Source: Dicyema japonicum
Lineage: Eukaryota > Dicyemida > Rhombozoa > Dicyemidae
NCBI GenBank assembly: GCA_011109175.1
Contig: RDEW01000021.1
Coordinates: 1,018,585 to 1,082,584 of the forward strand
Length of the DNA: 64,000 bases
Direction: 5' to 3'
A program made the position numbers and the translations under genes. Positions within the stretch are counted from its first letter, which is position 1. Each line of letters begins with the position of its first letter. Positions 21,494 through 23,995 of this stretch are shown piece after piece. Below the pieces are notes generated by a model. It was not told the DNA's origin and ran no database searches. It was given only the letters and a program-made list of their open reading frames with translations.

Positions 21494-23995
21494 ATGGGAA
21501 GAATCTCAATAAAAGGAGAAGTATGGACGAACGCAGAGGATGAAATCCTCAAAGCATCGGTCATGAAATATGGGAAAAATCAATGGGCAAGGATTGCCTC
21601 TCTTCTGCACAAAAAGTCAGCTAAACAGTGAAAAGCTCGTTGGCTCGAATGGCTGGACCCCTCCATAAAGAAGACCGAATGGAGCAAAGAGGAGGACGAA
21701 ACGCTGCTTCATATGGCCAAGCTCATGCCAACTCAATGGCGGAAGATAGCTCCAATCGTTGGAAGAACCTCTTGCCAATGCTTTGAAAGCTACGAATACC
21801 TACTGTAACCACGTGCTTCTAATTTAAGTGACAAGGCTCAGAACAATTTGGATGGTAACATTGTCAAGACGAAAAATTAGTTGGAGTCCAATCGCTCAAC
21901 CAAAACAGCTAGACCTGACCCCGTAGACATGGACGAAGATGTTTTTTTCGTTACGGTGATTCCTAGAGCTTTAAATACTCTCTGAAGCACGTGCGAGAAT
22001 TGCCAACACTCAAGGAAAGAAGGCCAAGAGGAAAGCACGTGAGAGGCAGCTACAAGACGCCAGGTACCCAGACTTGTTGTATTCAGGCGCCTGGCAGCTC
22101 TCCAGAAGACCCGGGAATTGAAGGCCGCGGGGATAGAGAACAAAGAGAAGCACTGTCGCGGAAAAAGGGTGATGGAATACAACTTGGAGATTCCATTCGA
22201 GAAGAAGCCTATTAATGGTAATCAAGTGTCTTGTGAGCTTAGGTCTATGGGACACCTCTAATGAGGTCTTTGTCCCCAAGCCTTACGACTTCAACGCCCT
22301 CCGGCGGTATGATTTGGACACTCAACGGAAATTCTCTGACCGCCGTGAGGCCGAGGACGCCGAAAAGGCACGGAAACGGAAAGAGTTGCCTCCGCTTGAC
22401 CATTCAAAGAGCCAGCAGCTCACAAAACGGCAGAAACTGGAGCTTCCCTCTCCCCAGGTAACGGATCAGCAGTTGGAGGAGGTTATTGTGAATATTTTAC
22501 CACAGATCGTTAAATTTGGTAATCTGGCAGATAGTTCACGGGAACGAGCTATCTCTGAGATGAATTCTGCTTCTGAACTGACGAATCTGCTCATATTGGA
22601 CGGGGGGTCAACCCCCATGATGACTCCGAGGACACCGATGCAAGGAGGGGAAGATTCCGTTGCCAGGGTTGGATTTAATGTTCTGAGTATAAAAGGAAGC
22701 CCGGAATATCTTAGCACTAAGCAACGTGCAGACCCAGTTGCTGAGGGAGCCAGTACTCCTCTTAGTAAAGATAAAGTGAAACAAAAATCGGCTATGCAGA
22801 CCCCAATACTCTGTTAACTACTAGAATACGTGGTTTGTGAGATTGTAATCACTATAGAGTCAATAATACCGTCGAACGTTGACCCTCCGTTGGTGAACCT
22901 AGATGAAATAAATATTGACGATTCAGAAAGTGGGAAAAATATAGTGGATCAGAGTTATGACAGACGGTAGTTGTTGAAGGCCCTACATTCACTCCTTTGG
23001 CCTCAGAATGAGTGTGAATTAGCCTTGGGAGGTCTCATGGATACGGAAGAGGACAAGAAAGAGACAATGGGGACTTCTTTTGTGGAAAATACCGAGGATG
23101 TAGACTTTAGAAGACTGGTTTGATTGATTTTTCAATCGTATTAGGAGGAAGCTAAAAAAGAAGCCGAGAAACGCTTCAAAATGCGATCCCTTGTAATTCA
23201 AAGGAACCTTCTCCGTCCTCTGACGGTAAACGAAGACGTTTTGCGAAGGAGGACTTAGAGTTGACTGATTTGCAAAAGGCTGATAAGCTTGTTAAAAGGG
23301 AAATGTTGACAATGATCCACTATGACAATCATTGCAATCCTGTTGGCAGGAAGTCTTCACAAAGTGAGCAGTATCTTCTTAACAACCTTTACGAGGAATT
23401 CACTCCCGAGCAGATTACCAATGTACGTGTGTTAGTCACGTGCAGGGTAGAGAACTATTGAAAGCTGAAATGGCCGTGGTGGAGAAATTCATGGGTCATG
23501 GAGATATTTCCACTGAAGAATATGGCCGAATTTGGTAGGAATGTCACTCGGAGATCTTCTTTAACCCAAAGGATGGGTCCCATAAATGTGTGAGCCTTGC
23601 TGATTCTGAAGAAAGGATCAGTTCATCTGAATTTGTTTTGACGGTAATTTTTTGTTCTATGAAGGCGTTTCGAGAGAACATGGAGAAAGATGCTAAGAAA
23701 GCCTTGAAACTCGAAAATAAGGCGAGGATCCTTCTTGGAGGGTACCAGAGGGCTGAAGGGTTACTGAATCAGATTAGACAGCTTGGAAATGAGATTTATG
23801 ATGGGAGGATTGAATTGGAGACGTTCGAACGCCTAAGTAAGATTGAGAAGACCGGAATGACCCACCGGATCAATGGTAATGGTGATGTGATTGTAGTCGT
23901 TGGAGAGTCATGTGGCTAGGCAAATGGAGAAGGAGAAGGAAATCCATGATAAATATTGGTTGTTGGCGAATAAGCAAAGTAATGGAGTGCATTAA
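21494..23995 (+). pseudogene. CDC5L: CDC5L/Cef1 splicing-factor gene, decayed, with nine micro-introns
   Basis: CDC5L is a nuclear Myb-type core protein of the PRP19 spliceosome complex. The N-terminus carries the paired Myb repeats ([71 protein letters not shown]). After them come TARPDPVDMDED, the [20 protein letters not shown] block, EIPFEKKP, the TPRTP segment, LTDLQKADKLVKREMLTM, and the C-terminal ENKARILLGGYQRAEGLLN and RQMEKEKEIHDKY. GT-AG introns of 21-27 nt must be removed to join these: 21805-21828, 21942-21966 (donor apparently mutated), 22064-22086, 22218-22242, 22833-22857, 23118-23144, 23423-23445, 23644-23664 and 23876-23896. Nonsense codons lie in conserved exon sequence: TGA 21629 (family Cys), TAG 21878, TAA 21972 (Glu), TAG 22968 and TAG 23536 (Glu). 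There are one-base shifts near 22802 and 23245. Because the introns are retained it is not a processed copy. Confidence 0.93.

Follow-up and report, generated by a model that had tools for sequence, protein, structure and literature searches.

The locus at 21494-23995 (plus strand) of the DNA analysed here raises two questions: whether the short GT-AG segments that interrupt its CDC5L reading frame are introns, and whether the gene copy that carries them still works. The initial annotation had read the segments as spliceosomal introns of near-minimal length in the CDC5L gene of an animal. That anatomy stands, but the copy in question reads as a pseudogene and the length class of its introns had already been published. 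The whole stretch analysed, referred to as the window, is 64,000 nucleotides long and corresponds to positions 1018585-1082584 of contig C88, in an assembly of 64,672,829 bases distributed over 191 contigs. CDC5L is a splicing factor of the Prp19 complex and is essential in the animals studied.

Two copies of CDC5L and the decay of one

A DNA search of the assembly revealed a sister copy (L002) at C88:939551-942057, on the same strand and approximately 100 kb upstream of the window CDC5L copy, showing 96% identity to 21494-23995 across all 2502 bases. A CDC5L protein search of the assembly gave 10 matches, all of them within one or the other of these two copies, and no third copy was found in the 64.67 Mb by either DNA or protein searches. 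The identity between the copies extends over a duplicated segment of about 7.2 kb (17022-24261, plus strand), which was delimited by blastn and flank alignment and consists of two blocks approximately 95-96% identical to C88:934806-942339; outside this segment the flanks of the two copies, on the same contig, differ in sequence. The window also contains a direct repeat of about 2.7 kb (8499-11172 and 15131-17757, 92.8% identical), the end of which is found beside L002 as well.

Elsewhere in the window, an ORF with a reverse transcriptase domain (RVT_1, E 5.6e-32) and a neighbouring ORF with a weak match to LINE-1 ORF2 chains (E 0.007-0.013) lie on the minus strand at 2-1048 and 1015-2367; judged by these matches, the pair is a LINE-type element. 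A second, shorter RVT_1 match (E 1.8e-7) is located at 41236-41763 on the plus strand. An open frame of 344 codons (29709-30740, plus strand) gave no match in Pfam or PDB sequences; it sits between two related satellite-like arrays (29314-29632 and 31152-31509), which are inverted repeats of one another. Scans of the window for tRNAs and Rfam families found nothing.

Removal of 11 introns from L002 leaves 745 codons without a stop, ended by an ordinary TAA terminator. The spliced protein was searched against 5.8 billion proteins and gave 5728 matches, the best 120 of which were used as homologues throughout. Among these best 120 the identity was 45-49% over 86-100% of the length, and all 120 carry the CDC5L Pfam domains PF00249, PF13921 and PF11831, indicating that L002 encodes a metazoan CDC5L with full-length homology that includes the Myb repeats. 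L002 is not flawless. Its intron 3 ends in TG (L002:2071-2093), where the window copy has AG, and at some sites it departs from residues fixed in all 120 homologues, such as Glu595, which is Gly in every one of them.

Compared with L002 codon by codon, the window copy showed 656 identical codons, 36 silent differences, 43 amino-acid changes, five stops and five codons with gaps. The stops are TGA at codon 46 (21629-21631), TAG at codon 121 (21878-21880), TAA at codon 144 (21972-21974) and TAG at codons 434 (22968-22970) and 607 (23536-23538), all on the plus strand, where L002 has TGC, GAG, GAA, GAG and GAG, respectively. The L002 residue is present in 120 of 120 homologues at the first three of these codons (Cys, Glu and Glu) and in 103 of 120 at codon 607 (Glu); at codon 434 the homologues mostly have Gln, and Glu occurs in 2 of 120. 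On the same strand the exons have lost, relative to L002, one base at each of 22733-22734, 22800-22801 and 23245-23246 and three bases at 23747-23748. The first stop, at codon 46, lies in exon 1 ahead of every intron and, therefore, splicing gives no open CDC5L frame in the window copy.

The amino-acid differences point in the same direction. Among the 120 homologues, the residue of L002 is the more frequent at 29 of the 43 and that of the window copy at 7, with ties at the other 7. The dN/dS ratio between the copies was 0.30 (NG86) or 0.44 (YN00) over 735 codons, stops and gaps left out, as expected if one copy were under constraint and the other not. Five exon stops, three one-base deletions and two lost splice donors, with L002 intact at all of those sites, mark the window copy as a pseudogene; as far as the sequence can tell, it is a duplicated (unprocessed) pseudogene of CDC5L in which the introns were retained, identified as such by its identity to L002 and by its lesions.

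Other readings of these lesions have to be weighed. A variant code, in which TAA and TAG specify Glu and TGA specifies Cys and under which the window copy would be a working gene, was considered first for the exon stops, since fitting residues are present in the homologues at four of these codons (Cys in 120 of 120; Glu in 120, 120 and 103 of 120). This idea was dropped on account of the sister copy, which has ordinary codons at all five positions and closes its frame with TAA. No code, moreover, explains three one-base deletions and two lost donors, and the ATP synthase beta and spliced aldolase genes of this genome read in the standard code without internal stops, so that a variant code can hardly be credited. 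It is also very unlikely, if less remote, that the lesions are assembly errors or an artefact of collapsed haplotypes and that both copies work. One-base indels are indeed typical of long-read errors, and the second of two aldolase copies (L059) likewise shows an apparent one-base frameshift, but neither five nonsense substitutions nor a 29:7 bias away from conserved residues resembles random sequencing error, and the two copies are separated by about 100 kb of the same contig and have unlike surroundings beyond the duplicated segment. The alternative that deserves most attention, while still improbable, is that both copies are pseudogenes and that a working CDC5L is absent from the assembly. 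The TG end of L002 intron 3 and the L002 residues that are unlike those of all homologues at several sites speak for it. On the other hand, the L002 frame of 745 amino acids is otherwise intact, 10 of its 11 introns are GT-AG and the searches of the 64.67 Mb revealed no further copy. Rare GT-TG introns are known, and this, together with the essentiality of CDC5L, also counts against the loss of both copies. We thus retain the reading of a decaying window copy beside a constrained L002, which we infer to be the expressed copy and whose intron 3 may use TG as its acceptor.

Short introns in the CDC5L frame

The introns of L002 measure, in order, 24, 25, 23, 25, 24, 28, 27, 27, 23, 21 and 22 nt and lie in phases 2, 1, 2, 1, 0, 0, 1, 0, 0, 0 and 0; the donor is GT in 11 of 11 and the acceptor AG in 10 of 11, with TG once. 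The nine GT-AG segments of 21-27 nt originally described in the window copy were thus part of a larger set: short GT-AG segments do interrupt the CDC5L frame, but there are 11 sites of 21-28 nt, nine of which have both termini. The donor is gone at two sites, intron 2 (21942-21966; 25 nt, phase 1) and intron 11 (23875-23896; 22 nt, phase 0), which begin with TT and GG, respectively, where L002 has GT. At intron 11 a GT stands one base further on, but its use would shift the frame. Intron 3 (22064-22086; 23 nt, phase 2) is GT-AG in the window copy and has the TG acceptor in L002. The other introns, all GT-AG and, like the preceding ones, on the plus strand, are intron 1 (21805-21828; 24 nt, phase 2), intron 4 (22218-22242; 25 nt, phase 1), intron 5 (22482-22505; 24 nt, phase 0), which has no in-frame stop, intron 6 (22668-22695; 28 nt, phase 0), which is frame-changing, intron 7 (22830-22857; 28 nt, 27 in L002, phase 1), intron 8 (23118-23144; 27 nt, phase 0), intron 9 (23423-23445; 23 nt, phase 0) and intron 10 (23644-23664; 21 nt, phase 0), the shortest of those firmly placed.

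The placement of these introns was examined in the alignment with the best 120 of the 5728 matches. Extra residues in orthologues, 7-9 in number, had been named as the observation that would speak against the introns; no such insertion was present at any of the 11 junctions in any of the 120 homologues. Homologues without a single inserted residue amounted to 120 of 120 at ten junctions and 119 of 120 at the ninth junction. Intron 5, if read through, adds 8 residues, which none of the 120 carries. The blocks said to be rejoined by removal of the segments (YEYLL/DKA, QDA/RRL and NG/LWDTS) were all recovered, and after removal of 23644-23664 the spacing, previously described as matching the human protein, equals that of all 120 aligned homologues. 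At 9 of the 11 junctions the length within ten residues of the junction is constant in nearly all homologues. Introns 6 and 7 are less firmly placed because homologue lengths vary around both: the alignment near them is loose, the lengths within 10 residues departing by -2 to -1 and by at least +15, and intron 7, in a poorly conserved region, is the least certain junction of all. Validation by protein alignment, as originally described, is accordingly clean for L002 but not for the window copy, the exons of which contain stops and frameshifts.

The spliced CDC5L coding sequence contains 65 GT..AG pairs spaced 21-28 nt apart, compared with 11 real introns and, therefore, termini and length alone cannot decide. 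An intron decoder working ab initio, by dynamic programming on codon usage with a flat length prior and trained on 2032 codons, was tried and dropped in favour of the spacing that profile matches imply: with its two loosest settings 5 of the 11 introns of L002 were recovered, with the two stricter ones 3 of 11, and no aldolase intron was placed correctly. The suggestion that standard gene finders would miss such genes is sound, as they are expected to fail with ordinary minimum intron lengths.

The segments could in principle be coding insertions, or the mirror images of small deletions, instead of introns. A number of the lengths are divisible by three (24, 27 and 21), and intron 5, as mentioned, lacks an in-frame stop; yet this does not apply to 6 of the 11 L002 lengths (25, 23, 25, 28, 23 and 22), all 11 segments of L002 start with GT and 10 of them end with AG, the residues that they would encode are carried by 0 of 120 homologues, and genes unrelated to CDC5L show the same arrangement. 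Such an origin is about as hard to defend as the variant code, and the segments are treated here as introns.

Recurrence in other genes and splicing signals

Profile searches of the assembly listed 40 exon matches for TCP-1/CPN60, 11 for ATP-synthase-ab and 8 for class I aldolase. One of these is a single-exon ATP synthase beta gene; the rest form 14 gene sets (9 CCT, 3 ATPase and 2 aldolase) with 44 neighbouring pairs of exon matches. The implied intron length was taken as the gap in bases between neighbouring matches compared with their gap in profile positions, and it fell at 18-30 nt in 35 of the 44 pairs. The remaining 9 pairs imply 37, 62, 67, 69, 69, 167, 11, -1 and -56 nt; they include pairs that lie plainly across unmatched exons or have overlapping matches, and some of the 9 probably span unmatched exons, longer introns being possible too. 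The set outside CDC5L was restricted to pairs implying 18-30 nt and is accordingly blind to longer introns.

Of the 35 junctions, 27 had, within a narrow zone, a GT and an AG spaced precisely as implied. As decoys, the remaining 255 dinucleotide pairs reached a mean of 3.4 junctions (SD 2.8) and a maximum of 18 of 35, and the top ones (GG..TA with 18, TT..GG with 16 and AG..TT with 15) look like echoes of G|GT..AG displaced by 1-2 bases. Four of the 35 junctions had no GT..AG fit even at 3 nt of slack. CCT, V-type/F-type ATPase and aldolase are thereby added, with CDC5L, to the dicyemid genes with tiny introns.

The two aldolase copies, L058 (C68) and L059 (C112), have diverged and have intron places in common. 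The spliced L058 protein matched Dicyema acuticephalum best, with 75% identity over 100% of the length, and the other 119 of its best 120 matches had at most 62%; by this match, the genome is almost certainly that of a dicyemid mesozoan, a minute parasitic animal. No dicyemid was present among the best 120 matches of ATP synthase beta, for which database coverage is the sole explanation that we offer. In L059 an apparent extra base after the second intron breaks the frame, and no single frame was obtained by splicing; this copy may reflect an assembly error or be a further pseudogene. Its exon-match pairs are counted among the 44.

The CDC5L introns, the junctions from the other genes and two aldolase introns positioned by visual inspection made up a set of 44 introns. 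Two of them, of 17 and 19 nt, were left out of the set of 42, since the former has an equal 23-nt alternative and the latter has no stop-free candidate. The 42 introns are 21-28 nt long, with a mean of 23.7 nt. The inner part of the introns has 28% GC compared with 46.5% in the CDC5L coding sequence. Beyond the GT, the donor has G at -1 in 28 of 44 introns, A or T at +3 in 38, and T at +5 in 21, with G there in 10. Apart from GT, the seven positions from -3 to +6 together hold about 2 bits (uncorrected) over the 44 introns, a very weak consensus.

A branch-like YTNAY with its A at -6 to -10 was present in 21 of the 42 introns, compared with a mean of 8.5 (SD 2.6) after mononucleotide shuffling, with the reservation that this position range was picked after the profile had been viewed; none of 2000 shuffles reached 21 introns. 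The motif occurred 22 times at -6 to -10 and 5 times at -11 to -15. Half of the 42 introns have no YTNAY at -6 to -10.

The assembly also contains candidate components of the splicing machinery. U2 snRNA scored above the curated gathering score at 22 of the 25 places listed, several of which are clustered on C115, and GTAGTA was present in all 6 candidates that were read. The best U1 candidate scored 69.0, just below the Rfam gathering score of 69.5, and of the 6 U1 candidates read, 5 have ACTTACCT near the 5' terminus. Since U2 has GTAGTA and U1 has ACTTACCT, the RNA partners look conventional. A U12 snRNA candidate (L057, C68:163471-163599), found at one place, scored 85.4 compared with a curated threshold of 53, which suggests that the minor spliceosome persists. 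SF1 was detected above the profile cut-off. U2AF2 exons are collinear on C114, and 22 and 23 nt separate the last three. Each of these exons scores below the whole-protein cut-off, and the U2AF2 profile also matches two bacterial control genomes through RNA-binding domains.

Site choice and relation to published short introns

These results make it highly probable that the window carries a duplicated, intron-bearing CDC5L pseudogene of a dicyemid and that its 21-28-nt segments represent U2-type spliceosomal introns of the ultra-short class. Splicing itself we infer from the anatomy of the DNA: the introns would have been removed in the functional ancestor and presumably are in L002 too, by a spliceosome that would keep at least U1, U2, U12, SF1 and U2AF2. 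The 5' splice site carries little information beyond GT. In the weak, branch-like YTNAY the A usually stands 7-8 nt from the 3' end of the intron, which would leave only about 15 nt between the 5' splice site and the branch A, and the AT-richness of the introns probably helps to set them apart from exonic GT..AG pairs of the same spacing. We advance, as a tentative proposal that we hold to be somewhat less probable than its opposite, that dicyemids may choose splice sites by fixed geometry and not by sequence, that is, by a GT with next to no other information at the 5' site, a degenerate motif that positions the branch A 7-8 nt from the 3' end and a gap of about 15 nt, the spliceosome acting as a molecular ruler. 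If this were true, a metazoan spliceosome with conventional U1/U2 pairing, SF1, U2AF2 and even U12 would span a gap far shorter than the animal norm.

The record for this locus is corrected in that the gene in the window is a relic, while its introns are real in kind and of a size that is the published dicyemid norm. A pair of copies of which one is constrained and the other decaying allows splice-site erosion of 21-28-nt introns to be watched. The position of the branch point is weakly indicated and testable for the shortest animal introns, and bears on how a large spliceosome fits about 23 nt. The spliced L002 protein aligns with metazoan CDC5L over its full length, whereas the window copy cannot encode CDC5L.

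Short introns have been described in dicyemids before. Aruga et al. 2007 reported 16 introns of 26.2 +/- 1.9 nt (PMC2222250). ATP synthase beta, a gene that has been cloned from D. acuticephalum, is reported to be intronless in that species (PMC2222250), as it is in the present genome. Irimia and Roy 2008 gave 41 introns with a mean of 24.93 and SD of 2.51, as well as the weakest 5' score known (0.5 bits) (PMC2483917). Genome-wide, Zverkov et al. 2019 reported a dicyemid intron median of 27 bp (PMC6543705). For D. japonicum the mean given by Lu et al. 2019 is 38.2 bp (PMC6736024), a figure that must include longer introns beyond the reach of the present sampling. By the published means of 26.2 and 24.93 nt and the median of 27, the Dicyema introns are of the same length class as the 21-28-nt introns described here, and they have similarly weak 5' splice sites; the present sequence differs in that the window CDC5L is a pseudogene copy. 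A report of a dicyemid branch-point signature was not found in a search of open-licence PMC papers, and Irimia and Roy 2008, in their account of the dicyemid introns, state that there is no such signature (PMC2483917), in contrast to the over-representation of a degenerate, positioned YTNAY observed here. The length class is thus already known as the dicyemid norm; the present analysis contributes the recognition of the pseudogene, a list of further genes with such introns and a hint that the branch point is positioned.

Outside the animals, tiny introns of 15-35 nt are described in the Bigelowiella nucleomorph and in two ciliates, Paramecium and Stentor; the GT-AG ends and the snRNAs are of the standard kind (PMC9505925, PMC2222250). 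The dicyemid introns are similar to these in size and GT-AG ends, the lineages being unrelated. Two differences concern Stentor, as it is portrayed in PMC9505925: minor-spliceosome snRNAs are given as not detectable there, whereas the present genome has a U12 candidate, and the branch A is nearly fixed in position in Stentor, whereas in the dicyemid introns it is looser.
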